Positions 43,203-51,305 of a DNA stretch of 58,678 bases are shown piece by piece (position 1 is the stretch's first letter; every line of letters starts with the position of its first letter). The stretch is taken from positions 1 to 58,678 of the forward strand of contig QXHL01000019.1 of assembly GCA_003584005.1 (NCBI GenBank), in the 5' to 3' direction. Under the pieces are notes generated by a model. It ran no database searches and was not told where the DNA came from. It saw nothing but the letters and a program-made list of their open reading frames with translations. A program made the position numbers and the translations under genes. This DNA comes from Alicyclobacillaceae bacterium I2511. GTDB taxonomy: Bacteria; Bacillota; Bacilli; Alicyclobacillales; Alicyclobacillaceae.

Positions 43203-44195
43203 ATGATTGGAAGTGACTCTGTATTGAACTTCAGACGACTGGGCAAAACAAACCTCCAGATTTCAGAAATTGGTTATGGGTCTTGGGGAATTGGCAATTC
43301 AGGTTGGCGTGGCGCAGAAGACAACGAATCTGTGAAAGCACTGCACCGCGCGATTGCACTGGGTGTCAATTTTATTGATACCGCCCTTGTTTATGGTGAT
43401 GGACACAGCGAACAGCTTGTGGGCCAAGTTGTACGCGAACATACGGAGACGGTATTTGTCGCCTCTAAAGTGCCACCCGCGAATCGCCAGTGGCCAGCCC
43501 GCACTGGCGTCGATGTGAAGGAAACTTTTAGCGCTGAACACATCATCAAGTCAACGGAAACCTCCTTACGCAATTTGGGTCTCGACACGATTGATGTGCA
43601 ACAGTTTCACGTCTGGTCTGACGAGTGGCTGGGTCATGGGGATTGGCTGGAAGGTGTGCAACGGCTGAAAGAACAAGGGAAAATCCGTTTCTTTGGCGTG
43701 TCCATCAATGACCACCAACCGGCAAACGCCATTCGTCTGATTGAAACAGGAGTTGTCGACACCGTGCAGGTCATCTACAATGTGTTCGACCAGAGTCCAG
43801 AAGACGAACTGTTCCCGGCATGTTTAAAACATGACATAGGTGTCATTGTGCGGGTACCGCTGGATGAGGGTGGCCTGACAGGTCGCATCACTCCAGACAC
43901 CACATTTCCAGCCGATGACTTTCGCAATCACTACTTCAAAGGAGAGCGTAAGCGCGAGGTGTTTGAGCGGGTGCAGAAAATGGTAGACGCTCTCCACATG
44001 GACATTCAGCAAGCACCCACGGTTGCGTTGCGCTATGTACTCAGTCACCCGGCCGTCTCAACCGTCATTCCTGGCATGCGTACAGTTCGCAATGTGGAAA
44101 CCAACAGTGCATTGGCAGACGGACGCGGTTTGTCGGCTGACCAAGTGCAGGGGCTCAAATCGCACCGTTGGATTCGCAACTTCTACAACGACTAA
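43203..44195 (+). CDS. Aldo/keto reductase
   Basis: 330 residues of the AKR barrel, reducing carbonyls with NADPH in the cytosol. Seen: [17 protein letters not shown], the catalytic Asp and Tyr in [15 protein letters not shown], the Lys in VFVASKVPP and the His position in VQQFHVW, and the C-terminal cofactor region [16 protein letters not shown]. Start uncertain: ATG at 43203 has no ribosome site, while TTG at 43224 has GGAAG upstream and gives the usual AKR opening. Substrate unknown; it lies beside a uronate operon on the opposite strand, separated by a hairpin, so a sugar-related carbonyl is possible. Confidence 0.85.
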
Positions 44196-44306: not shown

Positions 44307-45368
44307 TTAGCGTACCAAAATGTCGGGTAAATCCAGCGTCAAGTCGCCAATAGAAACGGTTTGTGTCGGAAAATTCCCCGTTTTAGTGAGAATCTCCACA
44401 CCTCTATCTGTCACGACAGCAGTGTCTTCAGCTTTCACCCCTAAAATAGTGGGATTCCAGGCTAAAAGGTGATTCACCTGGAAGACAACTTTTGATTCCG
44501 GAATGGCCCGTACCTCGCGCGACTGATACCCTGCAATTCCCCCCTGGTGATGGAATTGCCACTCCTTTTCATATCCCTCTTTCTGATACTGTGTCATGCC
44601 CCTTAAAAAAGCGTCCCCCACAGTACGCTCTGGACTAGAGCCAGCAAGAAATGCAGCTTCCACCCGCAGGACAGCCTGATACCGAGCCGAGAGGGACTTT
44701 GGAATCGGCCCAAAACAGAACATCCGAGTGGCCGACAACACGAGGCCATTGCGCCTACCCCCCACCGACACAATCCCGTACTCCGTTATTTTGTCACGCG
44801 TCGGAAGCAAATGCCGATACCGGATGGCCCGTTTTTCTCCGCCCACCAGGTTTACAATGGGCTCAATCCCTTGACGCAGACAGCCCATAGACAAAATACC
44901 CGCAATTTCGTTTTCCGTCTGTCCCTGTTGCACGTTGCGACACGTCGTTTCCAATATTTCTGCCAGCAAGAATCCAAACTCTCGCGTATCCGCCAGTCGA
45001 TCCGAATCCAATTGCATCCGCAACCGTTGTAAATCCAAACCTAATTGATGGTCTGTTGCCCCCCCTGGTTGGGCCATCCACGCATCCAGTTGACTTTGGC
45101 GTGCCTCGTCCATATACCACGGATACACATGTACCTGGTCCACATGTAACTCTTCTTCATCCGCAAGGCGCTGTGCCTCAATGTTGTTGACCAGCGCCTC
45201 AACCCGGTCTTGCGTGACCCACAGGGTAGCACAAGCGTCTTCTGTCGCGACGTTGATGTGATAGCGGCCACCCAGCAGCCATGTGACATTGGCTTGCTGG
45301 GTTAACAGCACTCCATCCAGTCCCAGTTGACTTAGCAAGCCACGAAGTTTGTCCAATCGCTCCGCCAC
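44307..45368 (-). CDS. M24-family (creatinase-like) protein with missing metal ligands
   Basis: 353 residues. An N-terminal creatinase-like domain (LDGVLLTQQANVTWLLGG) is followed by a pita-bread fold. In active M24 peptidases two aspartates in DxG...(S/T)DxTR bind metal; here the aligned part reads IVSVGGRRNGLVLSATRMF, with no Asp in either place. FHHQGGIAGYQSRE replaces the usual H-x-x-G-H-G-I-G. So it is probably not a metallopeptidase. It is the last gene of the uronate operon; a GTG start five bases after the preceding stop has AAGGG upstream, better than an ATG 21 bases earlier that overlaps the IolB-like gene. Role unknown; binding of a small molecule is possible. Confidence 0.72.
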   Translation of the reverse strand: MAERLDKLRGLLSQLGLDGVLLTQQANVTWLLGGRYHINVATEDACATLWVTQDRVEALVNNIEAQRLADEEELHVDQVHVYPWYMDEARQSQLDAWMAQPGGATDHQLGLDLQRLRMQLDSDRLADTREFGFLLAEILETTCRNVQQGQTENEIAGILSMGCLRQGIEPIVNLVGGEKRAIRYRHLLPTRDKITEYGIVSVGGRRNGLVLSATRMFCFGPIPKSLSARYQAVLRVEAAFLAGSSPERTVGDAFLRGMTQYQKEGYEKEWQFHHQGGIAGYQSREVRAIPESKVVFQVNHLLAWNPTILGVKAEDTAVVTDRGVEILTKTGNFPTQTVSIGDLTLDLPDILVR

Positions 45369-45373
45369 ACTAA

Positions 45374-46168
45374 TCAACCCTTCAGCCATTGATGATTGGG
45401 ATCATCATGGGGAATCATCACACGGTCCGTCTCCCCAGCCATCATCCACAAGTAGTAGAGACGATAGCCACCCCCAGCGCAAACAGGGTGATATCCGCCA
45501 GGCACAAGAAACGTATCTCCGTCCTGGACTCGGTAAGCCTCGTTGCGTGACCCGTCATTGGTATAAATGGACTGCACCCCAAATCCCTGCGCTGGATTTA
45601 GGCGATAGTAATAGACTTCTTCCATATTTGCCTCTACACCCTGTTCAAAATGGTCATGCTTGTGTGGCGGATAACTCGACCAATTTCCTGGATCATTGAA
45701 TGTCTCACCGACGATAATTCGATGCACGCGACCTTCCGCATTCTTGACCACAATGTCGTGCACCTCGCGATGCCAATTGTCTTGACCGACAGCGCGTGCC
45801 CAAACTTCCTTAGGTTGCACCATAAACGGCTCATATTGCGTCGGAGACGGTGTTCCACATAGGGCCGCTTGCAGTTCCTGGTTGCCTGTATTGGTCACTT
45901 TAAAGGTCGATTCAATGGGTAAGTATACTGCTGTCGCCCGTTCTTCAAAGACCCCTTTGCGCTGGCCAGAGAAAATCCGTGCGGCTACTTCAACCTGAAA
46001 ACTGCCCTGTAGGAGAATCAACACCTGTTCTTGTGCCCCCGTGTTGGCCACGTAAGTTTCATTCGGCTGTAGATTCAGCAGCCCAAAATTCAGCAGCTTC
46101 AGATGTTCATTTTCGGTCCCCACTATTTCTTGGTAGCCCATAGTTTTTTGAGCACGAATGTGTAACAT
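45374..46168 (-). CDS. IolB-like cupin isomerase in a uronate operon
   Basis: 264 residues and two cupin halves. The second half has the IolB signature: SYPPHKHDHF with His169 and His171, EEVYYYRL with Glu183 or Glu184, and PGGYHPVCAGGGY with His227, which are the metal ligands. IolB isomerises 5-deoxy-glucuronate in inositol breakdown. No inositol gene is present here; its partners are tagaturonate reductase, altronate dehydratase and KDPG aldolase, and no UxaC uronate isomerase is seen. Because IolB performs the same aldose-ketose reaction type as UxaC, it may isomerise galacturonate or glucuronate; this is inference. ATG with AGGAG eight bases upstream. Confidence 0.78.
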   Translation of the reverse strand: MLHIRAQKTMGYQEIVGTENEHLKLLNFGLLNLQPNETYVANTGAQEQVLILLQGSFQVEVAARIFSGQRKGVFEERATAVYLPIESTFKVTNTGNQELQAALCGTPSPTQYEPFMVQPKEVWARAVGQDNWHREVHDIVVKNAEGRVHRIIVGETFNDPGNWSSYPPHKHDHFEQGVEANMEEVYYYRLNPAQGFGVQSIYTNDGSRNEAYRVQDGDTFLVPGGYHPVCAGGGYRLYYLWMMAGETDRVMIPHDDPNHQWLKG

Positions 46169-46200
46169 GGACCTCACTCCTGTTTTTGTAGTTTTGTAGG

Positions 46201-47691
46201 TCAGGCTTTTACGGACATCAATTCAGACAAGGCATGGATAACCCCAGCACTGCGAATCTGCACAACATCATTGACGAGCGTCTTGGCCAGCCCAGGGAGC
46301 TTTGAAAGGTCCTGGCCCCAAACCCTTTGCAAGCGCAAGATTGCCTGGATGGCGGCATCCAACCCCGCTGATGGTTCAAGTTCCCAAGCAGCCTGCACCG
46401 CCTGCACCTGTTCAATATTGTCTTTAATCACCCAACGTTCATTGGGGGCTGTGGCATTGCGATAGTACAGTAGTAGCCCCGCTAGTGCCATCGTTAAAAG
46501 CGGTGGAATTTTGCCTGTCGCAACAAAGGAATCATGGAGTATGGGCAACACCCGCACGCCAATTTTTGATAATCCATTCAACTGAAGGGATGTGATTTCA
46601 TGTCGCAAGTAAGGATTACTAAATCGCTCCATCACTGAATTTGCAAACTCCTGGGCTGCCAATGCGGGAATTCCATGTGCGGGCAGGGTAGGGAGAATTT
46701 CATACTGCATTAGCCGTTGCACAAAAGTCCCCAGCACAGGATGTGTAACCACCTCTTTCACCGTTTGCAAACCAGCCAAATAAGCGAGTCCGGCGAGGGA
46801 CGTGTGTGCCCCGTTCAGCACTTTTACTTTAATTAAGCGATAAGGGGTGGCATCCGGGACATACCGGACATTTAGCTGTGCGGCAGGAAAATTAAGTTTT
46901 TCCGACAGCCGGGCAGGCCCTTCAATAACCCACAAATAGAAGGGTTCCCTGACCACACCCAAGCTGTCCACATAGGGAAACTCTTCTGCAAGAACCTTTT
47001 TATCCATACTTGCAAAACCCGTGATGATGCTATCCACCAGGGTGTTGTAAAAGAAATTGGATTGCTCTACCCACTTTGCAAATTGCTCTGGCAGCCGCCA
47101 GTCCGCAATATATTGTAGAACAAGTTCCCGCAATCGATCCCCATTGTTATCCACCAACTCACAGGGCACGATATCCAATCCCATGGACGAATCCCCGCCA
47201 AACGTTTGGTAACGTTCGTATAAATAAGCAGTCAGTTTGCCTGGAAATGAGGTTGGACACTGTCCACCTGTCAACGGTTCCTCAAGGTAGGTCAACCCAG
47301 CCTCTGTCGTGTTGGAGAAAACCGTATCCAGTAAGGGTTGACGGGCACATTCCAGCAACTCATTCCAATCTTGATAGGGGTCAATGGCCCGACTCACGGA
47401 AGTCACAACTTCTTTGGTGTCCACCAATTCCCCGTTTTGAATCCCCCGCAGCCAAACCGTGTAGAGTCCCTCTTGGTCCTTAAATTTTTGAATCGCCTGA
47501 GCTCCAGCGGCTAAAGGGGTCACAACAACGGTCCGTCCCTGATTTTGACCGCTTTTGTTCCACTGGTGTATCAGCCAATCGACGAATCCCTTCATGAAAT
47601 TCCCTTCGCCGAATTGGAGGAAACGTTCTGGATAATTCTCCACAGAGGGTAGGTTTGATTGTCTACCCATCCATTCTCTGCACAACAGCAT
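46201..47691 (-). CDS. uxaB: Tagaturonate (altronate) reductase, mannitol dehydrogenase family
   Basis: 496 residues. It reduces D-tagaturonate to D-altronate with NADH in the galacturonate route. Seen: FLQFGEGNFMKGFVDWLI for cofactor binding near the N terminus and KVKVLNGAHTSLAGLAYLAG, where Lys, Asn and His form the polyol dehydrogenase active site. Fructuronate reductase (UxuB) is the close alternative, but the partner altronate dehydratase argues for UxaB. Start: ATG at 47689-47691 with GGGAGG seven bases upstream; a frame five codons longer lacks one. It lies 36 bases after the dehydratase. Confidence 0.88.
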   Translation of the reverse strand: MLLCREWMGRQSNLPSVENYPERFLQFGEGNFMKGFVDWLIHQWNKSGQNQGRTVVVTPLAAGAQAIQKFKDQEGLYTVWLRGIQNGELVDTKEVVTSVSRAIDPYQDWNELLECARQPLLDTVFSNTTEAGLTYLEEPLTGGQCPTSFPGKLTAYLYERYQTFGGDSSMGLDIVPCELVDNNGDRLRELVLQYIADWRLPEQFAKWVEQSNFFYNTLVDSIITGFASMDKKVLAEEFPYVDSLGVVREPFYLWVIEGPARLSEKLNFPAAQLNVRYVPDATPYRLIKVKVLNGAHTSLAGLAYLAGLQTVKEVVTHPVLGTFVQRLMQYEILPTLPAHGIPALAAQEFANSVMERFSNPYLRHEITSLQLNGLSKIGVRVLPILHDSFVATGKIPPLLTMALAGLLLYYRNATAPNERWVIKDNIEQVQAVQAAWELEPSAGLDAAIQAILRLQRVWGQDLSKLPGLAKTLVNDVVQIRSAGVIHALSELMSVKA

Positions 47692-47727
47692 CCGTTTTCC
47701 TCCCAATTTACAAAATTAATCCGCACA

Positions 47728-49236
47728 TTACAAAGTGACTCCATCCTTAAAAATTGCTATCTCGCGAAATCCATTGTTCTCGTTTTGTGCAGTGGTCTTC
47801 CCGGAAGCTACATTGACTGTCAGTTGATACAACTCGTTGGCCATGGTTTCTATAGACAACCCGGACAACAATCGGCCTGCATCCAAGTCAATCCAGTGAG
47901 GTTTTTTCTCGCACAGTGCTGTGTTTGTAGAGACTTTTACGGTCGGGACCACCCCCCCCATCGGTGTCCCACGACCTGTGGTAAACAGCACCAGATGAGC
48001 CCCCGCGGCGGCTAAAGCAGTCACAGAAACCATATCATTCCCTGGTGCCTGAACCAGATTTAATCCATTCTGAACAGACTTCTCCGCATAGGACAAAACA
48101 TCCATAACTGGGCTAGTTCCTCCCTTTTGTATGCAGCCCAATGATTTCTCTTCGAGCGTGGTGATGCCCCCATCCTTGTTGCCGGGGGACGGATTGTCGT
48201 AAATTACCTGTTCGTGACGAGAATAATAATCTTTGAAATCATTGATGAGGTTCACTACCTTTTGAAAGGTCTCCCCATCTTTGGCCCGATTCATGAGAAT
48301 CGTCTCAGCTCCAAACATTTCCGGTACTTCTGTCAACAGCGTGGTCGCCCCTTGCTGTACCAACAAATCCGACACATTTCCTACCAGAGGGTTGGCTGTA
48401 ATTCCCGAAAACCCATCAGAGCCCCCACATTTTAATCCAATTTTTAATCTGGAGATGGGAACTGGCGTGCGCTGAAAAGTCTTCGCATAGGCCGCAAGTT
48501 CCGCCAAAATTTCCATTCCAGCCGTAAACTCGTTCTGAACCCCTTGGACAGTCAGAAATTTTACCCTCTGGTCCAAAACCTCTCCTATTACAGGTGCAAA
48601 GTCACTAATCCGGTTGTTTTCACAACCCAGTCCAAGTACAAGCACACCCGCCGCATTCGGATGGCGGACCAATCCAGCCAAAAGTTTTTGCGTATAGTGC
48701 AGGTCGTCCCCTAATTGCGAGCATCCGTAGGGATGCGAAAAATGAAACACGCCGTCAATTCCATTGCCTGTGAATCGAGCATTGGCCATTTCAGCCAACT
48801 TTTCAGCAGTCTTATTAATGCAACCTACAGTATTGATAATCCAAATTTCATTTCGAATGCCCACCTCGCCTGATTCTCGTACATACCCAGCAAAATATTT
48901 GGGTAGATTATGTCCCCCCATATCAGCCACTAACGGTTTCTCTGGCTGATATTGGTATTCCAATTTGCCCGACAAATTCGTTTGTAAGTTATGTGAATGC
49001 ACCCACTGCCCACGTTGAATTCTCACTACAGCTTGGCCAATGGGAACCCCGTACTTAAAGATTCCCCCACCCTGTTGTATATCGGTCAGGCTAATTTTGT
49101 GTCCCGCAGGAATATCCTCTAATACAATGAATTCCGCTTCGCCTACCCTCACTGCTTTCCCTGCACGTAATGCTCTGAGTGCTATGCCTACATTATCGTT
49201 AGCGTGTAGCTTTACTACTTCGTTTTCCGTGGACAT
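47728..49236 (-). CDS. uxaA: Altronate dehydratase
   Basis: 502 residues, full length. An N-terminal SAF domain (about 10-90) precedes the UxaA domain with GIRNEIWIINTVGCINKTA, FSHPYGCSQLGDD, GLKCGGSDGFSGITANP and TGRGTPMGG. It dehydrates D-altronate to 2-keto-3-deoxygluconate, using iron or manganese. The cysteines in GCSQLG, GLGCENN and KCGGSDG are in place. GGAGGTGA upstream of the ATG. KDG must next be phosphorylated by a KDG kinase, which this operon does not carry; the kinase may be elsewhere. Confidence 0.92.
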   Translation of the reverse strand: MSTENEVVKLHANDNVGIALRALRAGKAVRVGEAEFIVLEDIPAGHKISLTDIQQGGGIFKYGVPIGQAVVRIQRGQWVHSHNLQTNLSGKLEYQYQPEKPLVADMGGHNLPKYFAGYVRESGEVGIRNEIWIINTVGCINKTAEKLAEMANARFTGNGIDGVFHFSHPYGCSQLGDDLHYTQKLLAGLVRHPNAAGVLVLGLGCENNRISDFAPVIGEVLDQRVKFLTVQGVQNEFTAGMEILAELAAYAKTFQRTPVPISRLKIGLKCGGSDGFSGITANPLVGNVSDLLVQQGATTLLTEVPEMFGAETILMNRAKDGETFQKVVNLINDFKDYYSRHEQVIYDNPSPGNKDGGITTLEEKSLGCIQKGGTSPVMDVLSYAEKSVQNGLNLVQAPGNDMVSVTALAAAGAHLVLFTTGRGTPMGGVVPTVKVSTNTALCEKKPHWIDLDAGRLLSGLSIETMANELYQLTVNVASGKTTAQNENNGFREIAIFKDGVTL

Positions 49237-49254
49237 TTACAAATCACCTCCCAA

Positions 49255-49878
49255 TCATGTACTAAGGGATAATAGCTGCTTGGCCTTCTTAGTGATGGCC
49301 GACCAATTTTTCATCTCAATATCTGCACGGGGGAACAGTGAACTCCCCATGCCAACAGCGATGGCCCCTGCTTGCAAAAAATCTAAGAAGTTGTTCACAT
49401 TAAGCCCACCCGTCACCATCATTTGCAGTCCCGCAAATGGGCCCAGCACATCCCGTACAAAGCTCGCACCCAAGCTACTGGCCGGGAATACTTTCACAAC
49501 CTCTGCGCCAGCCGCCAAAGCCGTATGAATTTCCGTGGGTGTGAACACACCGGGAACCAATGGACAATTTAATTTCAAAGACTGTTCTATCAAACTCACA
49601 TCAAGGTGTGGACACACCAAAAATTTTGCGCCAGCGTCCACAGCTTCTCGCACCTGTTCCTTTGCAAACACCGTTCCAGCACCGACAACAACCTGGTCCC
49701 CATAGCGGCGATTAAGGTCGGCAATGCCGCTTGCTGCATCCGTAGAATCCATCGTGATTTCAATCGCCCGAATGCCCCCGTTCACAAGGGCATCCATTAC
49801 GTCTAAAAACGATTCCCGCGGAATTTTACGAACTACCGCAACCACTTTCGCTTGAGTAAAGAGTTCACTGACGTTCAT
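49255..49878 (-). CDS. kdgA: KDPG/KHG aldolase
   Basis: 207 residues. It splits 2-keto-3-deoxy-6-phosphogluconate into pyruvate and glyceraldehyde 3-phosphate. Seen: the catalytic Glu40 in AIEITMD, VVGAGTV, the Schiff-base lysine in VVKVFPAS (Lys129), and MVTGGLN. The name follows context with altronate dehydratase; relatives act also on 2-keto-4-hydroxyglutarate. It is the first gene of the uronate operon, with GGAGGTGA 12 bases upstream, and begins about 180 bases from the predicted transcript start. Confidence 0.9.
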   Translation of the reverse strand: MNVSELFTQAKVVAVVRKIPRESFLDVMDALVNGGIRAIEITMDSTDAASGIADLNRRYGDQVVVGAGTVFAKEQVREAVDAGAKFLVCPHLDVSLIEQSLKLNCPLVPGVFTPTEIHTALAAGAEVVKVFPASSLGASFVRDVLGPFAGLQMMVTGGLNVNNFLDFLQAGAIAVGMGSSLFPRADIEMKNWSAITKKAKQLLSLST

Positions 49879-50013
49879 CCTTTTAACAGGTCACCTCCAG
49901 TTTTCTATTTATATACTGTAAATCCATTTAAAAGGTAGGATACACACTGAAATCTTCCTCCCCCTGTGGTCAACTTTCATCAATACTTTCAACGTCTAAA
50001 CAGTTTTTCTGAT

Positions 50014-50061
50014 CACAACTCACAACTCACAACTCACAACTCACAACTCACAACTCACAAC
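50014..50061. repeat. Heptanucleotide microsatellite, (CACAACT)n
   Basis: Six full copies and six bases of a seventh (50014-50061), pure. On the minus strand it reads (AGTTGTG)n and lies where the uronate operon's transcript is predicted to begin, about 135 bases before kdgA. Confidence 0.93.
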
Positions 50062-50094: not shown

Positions 50095-50297
50095 GGTTAA
50101 AAAGTACATACAAATATATAGCACTGTTAATTTCCGCTCTGTATAGCCCCGTTGATATTATCCAGACTTTAAGCTCTTTCATCAGTCAATATTCTCTGTT
50201 GAAGAGATGTTGTTTCATTACAAAAAATATGTTAGATTATCATTAGGTTGGGCAAGGATGGATAAGTTCCCTTCCTTGCAAGGGGGAGGGTGTGACA

Positions 50298-51305
50298 GTG
50301 TCCACTATGTCCGATGTGGCCAAAAAGGCCAGCGTATCTGTGATGACTGTATCCAGAATTATTAGCGGAAGTGGGTCTGTAAAAGAATCCACACGAAAAA
50401 AAGTACTGCATGCAATGGAAGAACTGAATTATATTCCAAAGGGTCTCAGTAAAAAGGTGATTCGCAGTGAAATAAGTACGTTGATGTTGATTGTTCCAGA
50501 TATAACTAATTCTTTTTTCACATTTATTGCCCGTGGTATGGAAGATGTAGCAAAAAAACATGGGTATCGAGTATTTTTAGCAAATACAGATGAAAACCTA
50601 CATAAAGAAAGCGAATATATTGAGATGTGCCTAGAATTTCACGCAGATGGTGTGCTCATTGCCCCTGTAGGGGACAGTTCAAAAGAAAATCTCGAATTGC
50701 TCTTACAACAAGAGATCCCATTTGTGCTGATAGATCGAGAGGTCAATGGAATTCAAGTGGATGTAGTCAAAGGGGACATCATCAGTGCCTCCAAAACTTT
50801 AATTGAACATCTCATCACTCTGGGTCACAGTCGCATTGCCATCATCACTGGCCCCCCTGATAATGGAGCGAGCCGGGATAGAATTGAAGGATATCGTCAA
50901 GCACTAAATGCGTCTGGTCTTCCCTATTTAGATCAACTCGTTAAGGAATCCACAATGATGCGAGATATAAACCCGACATTTATAGATGAATTGCTGTCGA
51001 TACCCCATCCACCTACAGCCCTGTTTGTGGCCAATATGTTTCAGTACGCACATTCCTTGAAACGCCTACATGAAATGGAACTACGCGTTCCAGAAGATAT
51101 CAGTATTGTTGGTTTTGGTAACACCGACTACTTAGCTGCTATTGATTCGGCTCTCACCGCTGCAATTCAGCCTACATACAGCTATGGTTCACTGGGAACC
51201 CAGCTATTAATCGAAAGAATTGAAGGTTCGCGAGAAATCCCGCGCAAAATTCTTTTACAAAACGATATCGTCTTTCGCAATTCAACAGCCCCACCTAAAC
51301 CGTAA
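50298..51305 (+). CDS. LacI-family repressor, likely of the uronate operon
   Basis: About 335 residues. The N-terminal helix-turn-helix is DVAKKASVSVMTVSRIISG with the hinge ALEEL-like HAMEELNYIPKG; the rest is a periplasmic-binding-protein-like sensor (LMLIVPDITNSFF, FHADGVLIAP, EGYRQAL, SIVGFGNTDY). Start: GTG at 50298 with AGGGGGAGG upstream; GTG at 50292 and ATG at 50307 are alternatives. It is divergent from kdgA, whose promoter holds a palindromic operator. Its codon use is more AT-rich than its neighbours' (many AAA, GAA, ATT), hinting at separate origin. Confidence 0.86.
   Translation: MSTMSDVAKKASVSVMTVSRIISGSGSVKESTRKKVLHAMEELNYIPKGLSKKVIRSEISTLMLIVPDITNSFFTFIARGMEDVAKKHGYRVFLANTDENLHKESEYIEMCLEFHADGVLIAPVGDSSKENLELLLQQEIPFVLIDREVNGIQVDVVKGDIISASKTLIEHLITLGHSRIAIITGPPDNGASRDRIEGYRQALNASGLPYLDQLVKESTMMRDINPTFIDELLSIPHPPTALFVANMFQYAHSLKRLHEMELRVPEDISIVGFGNTDYLAAIDSALTAAIQPTYSYGSLGTQLLIERIEGSREIPRKILLQNDIVFRNSTAPPKP

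Follow-up and report, generated by a model that had tools for sequence, protein, structure and literature searches.

An IolB-like protein as the predicted uronate isomerase of a galacturonate operon in the Alicyclobacillaceae

A galacturonate operon carrying an IolB-like gene

The window analysed here is the whole 58,678-nucleotide stretch of contig QXHL01000019.1 (C108) from Alicyclobacillaceae bacterium I2511, and between positions 44307 and 49878 it holds a uronate-degradation operon that includes an IolB-like gene. The five genes follow the order kdgA-uxaA-uxaB-IolB-like-M24-like, all on the minus strand and divergent from a lacI gene. An earlier note on this DNA had described five genes on one strand with gaps of 36 bases or less, and had found among them no UxaC, inositol gene or 2-keto-3-deoxygluconate (KDG) kinase. 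Both statements hold for the five genes: spacings of 18, 21 and 23 bases separate kdgA, uxaA, uxaB and the IolB-like gene, and the IolB-like and M24-like genes overlap by 16 bases.

The IolB-like gene (45374–46177, GTG start with an ATG at 46168) encodes a bicupin that matches PF04962 with 265.2 bits and is the predicted uronate isomerase. It follows uxaB (46201–47706, TTG start), whose product scores 546 bits against the tagaturonate reductase model NF002969 (cut-off 359) and only 99.7 bits against the fructuronate reductase model NF011611 (cut-off 603). The product of uxaA (47728–49236), an altronate dehydratase with SAF and GD_AH domains, matches PF20629 (GD_AH_C, 340.8 bits), PF04295 (156.3 bits) and PF08666 (29.5 bits), and its 297.8 bits against the galactarate dehydratase model TIGR03248 fall far under the cut-off of 730.85. 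The kdgA (eda) gene at 49255–49878 encodes the 2-keto-3-deoxy-6-phosphogluconate aldolase of the last pathway step (PF01081, 156.7 bits; eda model TIGR01182, 192.3 bits, cut-off 156.05). A protein of M24/creatinase fold is encoded at the other end of the operon (44307–45389; Creatinase_N 37 bits, Peptidase_M24 35.5 bits), and the divergent gene on the plus strand (50292–51305) encodes a LacI-family regulator (PF00356, 69.1 bits). A chance arrangement is excluded, because the IolB-like gene adjoins uxaB in 24 of 60 relatives. The same operon core occurs in Alicyclobacillus pomorum, A. contaminans, A. sendaiensis and two metagenome-assembled genomes (MAGs; L095–L099). Adjoining the operon end, an aldo-keto reductase gene (43203–44195) lies on the opposite strand; its nearest model is the YdjG methylglyoxal reductase, far under the cut-off.

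The usual isomerase is absent from the assembly

In the IolB reaction the carbonyl of 5-deoxy-glucuronate shifts from C1 to C2, the same change that UxaC brings about in galacturonate and glucuronate, and 5-deoxy-glucuronate lacks only one hydroxyl relative to the uronate. The UxaC step of the galacturonate and glucuronate pathway is covered in the accessible part of PMC6353982. In the whole assembly (3.48 Mb in 232 contigs, 98.36% complete) no protein matched the UxaC family PF02614; the same search gave matches in 7 of 14 control genomes, including those of E. coli, B. subtilis and T. maritima. The possibility that UxaC was missed through assembly gaps was considered and rejected, UxaC being absent also from 22 relatives that carry a PF04962 gene linked to uxaB (within 5 kb and on the same strand), five of which are assembled in 1–4 contigs (G002, G010, G024, G026 and G032). 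The prospect raised earlier of a UxaC elsewhere under the same LacI regulator is thus not borne out.

The KduI/IolB family PF04962 has a single match in the assembly, namely the IolB-like gene of the operon. Among the inositol genes we searched genome-wide for IolD only, and none exceeded the cut-off of 715 (best 226.5 bits); because of this there is no sign of an iol operon served by the IolB-like gene, and its candidacy as the IolB of such an operon, which the earlier note had named as a possible refutation, was rejected. UxuA is likewise missing from the assembly, so that galacturonate rather than glucuronate is the likely substrate in this genome. A pfkB-type kinase gene on contig C167 (L175), with 204 bits against the model for KDG and 2-keto-3-deoxygalactonate kinases (cut-off 400) and 194 against the IolC model (cut-off 300), is a possible KDG kinase gene outside the operon.

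Near-complementary distribution of the IolB-like gene and UxaC

We searched 61 genomes, the bacterium's own and 60 relatives, for the UxaB, UxaC and PF04962 families. In the 34 genomes with uxaB, 23 have a linked IolB-like gene without UxaC, six have UxaC without a linked PF04962 gene (G007, G016, G035, G036, G050 and G057), two have both (G043 and G048) and three have neither (G008, G011 and G046), a split with a Fisher p of 0.0014 uncorrected for kinship. In the subset of 28 genomes where a single fetched stretch holds both uxaA and uxaB (the bacterium's own genome being counted by hand), the figures were 20 with the IolB-like gene, five with UxaC, two with both and one with neither (p = 0.0012), the last being G046, whose genes lie on a 5.2-kb contig. 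A pfkB-type kinase gene is also present at 10 of the 24 relatives' loci, where KdgK, KdgA, UxaA and UxaB thus form a full set around the IolB-like gene and only the isomerase step is left open.

UxuA was matched in 30 of the 61 genomes, of which G021 and G028 were dropped for having only weak half-length matches. The remaining 28 comprise 17 with the IolB-like gene only, six with UxaC only, two with both and three with neither (G046, G051 and G056), and at four relatives' loci (L047, L051, L054 and L061) uxuA belongs to the same cluster as the IolB-like gene. Together, the 17 UxaC-less genomes and the four shared clusters suggest that the IolB-like protein acts on both galacturonate and glucuronate. 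The 24 genomes without uxaB and uxuA contain neither UxaC nor an IolB-like gene of the uronate branch described below, a result that is no independent test because that branch is recognised partly by its link to uxaB. They include G001, the sole other genome of the genus, an 82% complete assembly in which a piece of the M24-like gene (50% identical) lies at a contig end, so its operon may have been cut by the assembly.

A subfamily separate from IolB and KduI

The curated IolB model TIGR04378 gives the IolB-like protein 230.9 bits, above its cut-off of 205, and the predicted structure (mean predicted local distance difference test score 94.7, predicted template modelling score 0.92) superimposes on the IolB-like structure 2qjv with a template modelling (TM) score of 0.94. 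Both results would suit an ordinary IolB, a 5-deoxy-glucuronate isomerase that merely happens to be placed in a uronate operon. Such a reading seems improbable when set against the lack of an IolD over the cut-off and against the phylogeny. In a tree of 49 PF04962 proteins from the 61 genomes, the 25 uxaB-linked proteins fall on one side of a branch (support 77/74, or 80/91 when an unlinked member from G011 is added), and 12 high-scoring IolBs form a separate branch (92/89). IolD exceeds its cut-off in 12 of the 61 genomes, exactly those with the 12 iol-branch proteins. Seven genomes hold both an iol-branch and a uxaB-linked copy (G002, G006, G010, G018, G019, G025 and G030), and in six of them the iol-branch gene, in none the uxaB-linked gene, lies within 4 kb of IolD; the iol-branch gene of G018 lies at the end of one contig and IolD on a different one. 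Identity averages 64% among the 26 uronate-branch members, 48% among the 12 iol-branch members and 34% between the two groups.

Fifteen alignment columns differ between the uronate and iol branches (each conserved in at least 25 of 26 and 11 of 12 members, respectively), 13 of them without exception, and the distinguishing residues include G154, T156, N158, W241 and M251. The histidines and glutamates that we take to be metal ligands (the HxH...E...H pattern; H169, H171, E183 or E184, and H227, numbered from the ATG at 46168) are common to both branches, and H169, H171, E184 and H227 are invariant in all 29 aligned sequences.

The shared PF04962 family and fold, and the lack of any other PF04962 gene in the assembly, also raise a KduI role, in which the protein would isomerise 5-keto-4-deoxyuronate from lyase-cut pectin and another enzyme would make tagaturonate. 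The eight KduI-like proteins, however, lie far off in the tree (a 100/100 split) and the IolB-like protein does not group with them; five genomes with a uxaB-linked gene hold a separate KduI-branch gene (G003, G010, G021, G028 and G048), the KduI route needs a KduD-type reductase rather than UxaA and UxaB, and the isomerase step would be without a gene. We therefore give this alternative little credence. The structural comparison with IolB and KduI proposed in the earlier note returned a fold match in each case, with TM scores of 0.63–0.71 at 11–16% identity for the KduI structures; such a match in a predicted model confirms the fold, not the substrate. Three further paralogues (two from G043 and one from G015) sit loosely beside the uronate branch (80/23).

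Closely related LacI regulators stand beside either enzyme

Regulators 72–73% identical to the LacI of the window occur both at loci of the IolB type (L065 and L069) and at loci of the UxaC type (L085, L087 and L088). In G035 and G036, UxaC directly follows uxaB beside a regulator 72% identical to ours, and G007, with a LacI of the same identity, has the order lacI, uxaA, uxaB, kdgK, kdgA, uxaC. Twenty regulators, 19 of them different, were placed in a tree, where three of the UxaC type, two of them identical, lie inside a 99/99 set with six of the IolB type, nearest to the window's own group (94/92). Two changes of label are needed in this tree; the best UxaA tree requires three. Close relatives of one regulator thus accompany either enzyme.

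The control regions were compared as well. Of 23 regions searched for a strict CG-centred palindrome upstream of lacI, only L056 had a match; the window had none. A looser 18-base word, chosen as the best among seeds drawn from four loci, lies upstream of the UxaC operon in G036; G024 and G002 each have it with one mismatch at their IolB-type loci, and it is found in most other regions. Its best mismatches summed over 20 regions came to 75, whereas 200 block shuffles averaged 141.7 and never went below 133; these odds are flattering, since two of the 20 regions necessarily score zero and the word had been selected because it recurs. It was not significant in L064, L073 or L086. Between the operon and lacI, positions 50013–50061 consist of seven perfect copies of the 7-base unit TCACAAC, possibly a variable spacer in the control region.

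The M24-like partner

The M24-like gene is present at 14 of the 25 uxaB-linked loci, counting the window and one locus where it is about 5 kb away (L063), and at none of the nine fetched UxaC loci. All 14 best matches in the 61 genomes (at least 279 bits) are at uxaB-linked IolB-like genes; weaker ones (at most 222 bits) lie elsewhere, including the UxaC genomes G035, G036 and G050. Such an association might suggest that this protein, not the IolB-like one, supplies the missing isomerase. At 11 of the 25 loci, however, the IolB-like gene has no M24-like gene nearby. Moreover, in a weak alignment to the solved dipeptidase 5cdl (E 6e-05), the M24-like protein keeps the H and the last E of the five ligands D, D, H, E, E that we presume from the family, the two D and the first E being replaced by S, S and N, and none of the 14 aligned members has D, D or E at these three columns. 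The loss of three of five presumed ligands makes a metallopeptidase role unlikely, and we consider it very improbable indeed that the M24-like protein is the isomerase. At three loci (L049, L050 and L052, from G010, G021 and G028) kdgA, uxaB, the M24-like gene and the IolB-like gene lie together with no uxaA in the fetched stretch, and at L049 a DeoR regulator and an FGGY sugar kinase are next to this group.

Relatives beyond the order

A scan of genome contigs gave at least 592 candidates, of which the best 80 were kept, so that the scan favours proteins close to the query. Each was typed by a single residue, W or N at position 241, which was unreadable in two of the 80. Of the 54 N-type proteins, 45 have a nearby match to IolD or to one of two other genes of the iol locus L035, and none has a uronate-gene match. 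Of the 24 W-type proteins, nine have a match to uxaA, uxaB, uxaE or uxuA nearby (L095–L099, L100, L102, L105 and L146), and two have one weak match to an L035 gene: L100 at 33%, the gene presumably being that for an aldehyde-dehydrogenase-like protein, and L107 at 29%, about 7 kb away.

In Bacillus sp. OV166 (L100) the IolB-like gene, uxaA and uxaB stand in a row. The same trio occurs on the Priestia megaterium plasmid pBP01R2b, annotated as 5-deoxy-glucuronate isomerase, altronate dehydratase and tagaturonate reductase, with a uxuA-like stretch in two pieces further on and on the other strand. A Helarchaeota MAG (L102) has uxaB (579.7 bits) about 2 kb away on the other strand and one GD_AH_C gene, and no UxaC was found in that genome. 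In an Anaerolineae MAG (L105, 6215–10400), genes for two ABC permeases, the IolB-like protein and the tagaturonate epimerase UxaE follow one another, and an Actinomycetota MAG (L146) has a 27% uxaB match nearby.

Other W-type proteins are found in unlike contexts. At L101 (4338–8290) the gene lies amid those for D-lyxose isomerase, a xylose-isomerase-like protein and glycerate kinase, which suggests another sugar substrate within the group, and L103 has an acetate kinase context. Because such proteins adjoin unrelated sugar genes, the W-type group as a whole need not consist of uronate isomerases. These contexts also lend something to the view that the operon handles another sugar acid, which feeds tagaturonate or altronate and is isomerised by the IolB-like protein, as does the fact that the two flanking genes examined in the window (aldo-keto reductase and LacI) encode neither a transporter nor a pectinase. 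On the other side, in G007, G035 and G036 the uxa locus holds UxaC itself, with closely related versions of the same regulator next to it, which points to the same substrate; we see only a slim chance for another sugar acid.

Lachnospira eligens is a pectin degrader, and a relative of 41–43% identity on its large plasmid lies beside a YhcH-family gene and an SLC13 permease gene, not uronate genes. A match on a Halomonas plasmid, without annotation, is closer to true IolB. A third kind of IolB-like paralogue (two copies at L071, 414–2151; one at L072, 8139–8954) is directly beside split transketolase subunits and adjoins ABC sugar-transport genes; one L071 copy has an internal stop. These copies led us to consider the sulfoquinovose transketolase pathway as a precedent, which was rejected since one review assigns its proposed 4-deoxy-4-sulfoerythrose isomerase, SqwI, to PF02502 and not to the IolB family (accessible part of PMC9594981); no IolB is named in the accessible parts of PMC11659671 and PMC12890257.

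Proposed function and its weight

We propose that the IolB-like protein acts as a uronate isomerase in place of UxaC, to which it is not homologous; this is a prediction from sequence comparison, and we assign it a probability of about 0.8. In this genome it would most likely convert D-galacturonate (aldehyde at C1) to D-tagaturonate (ketone at C2). UxaB would then reduce tagaturonate to altronate, and UxaA would dehydrate altronate to KDG, which a kinase encoded elsewhere would phosphorylate before KdgA splits the product. In the 17 UxaC-less genomes with the IolB-like gene and UxuA, D-glucuronate would probably be converted to fructuronate as well. Chemically, this would be the same aldose-ketose shift as in the IolB reaction with 5-deoxy-glucuronate, taking place at a cupin metal site presumably kept from IolB. 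The suggestion of the earlier note that this IolB relative stands in for the isomerase, as a prediction, is thus strengthened by the near-complementary distribution with UxaC, the separate branch, the closely related regulators beside either enzyme and the full sets at 10 of 24 loci.

Several observations weigh against this proposal. The curated IolB model accepts the protein above its cut-off, support for the uxaB-linked branch is moderate (77/74), and the genomes are related, so the counts are not independent. G043 and G048 keep UxaC alongside the IolB-like gene; since UxaC there lies immediately ahead of uxuA, with 26 bases separating the matches, and the IolB-like gene accompanies uxaA-uxaB, the two enzymes may divide the work, UxaC serving glucuronate and the IolB-like protein galacturonate. 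Neither isomerase is present in G008 (uxaB), G046 (uxaB and uxuA), G051 and G056 (both uxuA), and in G011 the IolB-like gene is not beside uxaB. G008 and G011 have a uxaB-like gene without uxaA in the fetched stretch, amid unrelated genes (an AMP-binding enzyme and a hydrolase; a sulfotransferase). Bacillus sp. OV166 carries two UxaC despite its trio, and the Anaerolineae MAG with the IolB-like/UxaE pair has a divergent UxaC. Well-supported branches of the UxaA tree force only one switch between the enzymes, and the best match of the window to the 18-base word has five mismatches (P = 0.175, not significant).

A broader version, which we regard as possible but rather doubtful, would make these proteins a second non-homologous class of uronate isomerase within the KduI/IolB family. 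Its members would bear GETFN and YYLW instead of VVEV.TP and YYLN and act on both uronates; the class would have reached the Bacillaceae (a chromosome and a plasmid), Chloroflexota and perhaps archaea, and in Alicyclobacillales it would work with a metal-less creatinase-fold partner that has a new function in uronate catabolism.

If the replacement is real, genes of Alicyclobacillus-type genomes that the curated model names iolB, for inositol, are misnamed and instead fill the sole gap in the galacturonate and, in many, the glucuronate pathway. Metabolic predictions from genomes would then mistakenly rate these bacteria as incapable of using the uronates of pectin and xylan. An otherwise conserved operon would show a clean example of non-orthologous enzyme replacement, and it could be a source of an isomerase adapted to acid and heat for converting pectin. 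The M24-like partner ties an additional uncharacterised protein to a defined pathway.

Comparison with known systems

IolB chemistry is an aldose-ketose shift on a uronate, and the window protein is like IolB (TIGR04378) in sequence family, bicupin fold and presumed metal-binding residues. It differs in its mean identity of 32% to the 12 iol-branch IolBs, its separate branch with 15 differing conserved columns, an assembly without IolD over the cut-off, and its place in a galacturonate-degradation operon.

UxaE, the tagaturonate-fructuronate epimerase (PF16257), is another enzyme of the hexuronate network, and an IolB-like relative adjoins its gene at L105, but it belongs to a different family and catalyses a different reaction. 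KduI shares PF04962 and the fold with the IolB-like protein, and differs in its distant position in the tree and in its partner KduD, instead of UxaA and UxaB. Extracts of E. coli overproducing KduI turned over galacturonate and glucuronate faster than controls, according to the available part of PMC3578941, which by analogy offers a weak precedent. The available text of PMC12838403 (December 2025) assigns KduI to the KduI/IolB family and reports another replacement, that of KduI by DhuI. The corresponding part of PMC5901876, on Alicyclobacillus, discusses an alpha-glucuronidase gene and gives no growth data on free uronates. In the open-access literature searched, which leaves most subscription journals outside, the accessible parts of PMC4428132, PMC3578941, PMC6353982 and PMC12838403 included, we found no proposal of a uronate isomerase from the IolB family.

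UxaC is a member of the amidohydrolase superfamily. UxaC (PF02614) occupies the place in the pathway that is predicted for the IolB-like protein and, in some relatives, is found in an operon of the same type whose regulator is closely related; the IolB-like protein matches PF04962 only, not PF02614, and comes from an unrelated family. What is new here is thus a known pathway with a predicted non-homologous isomerase drawn from a known family.

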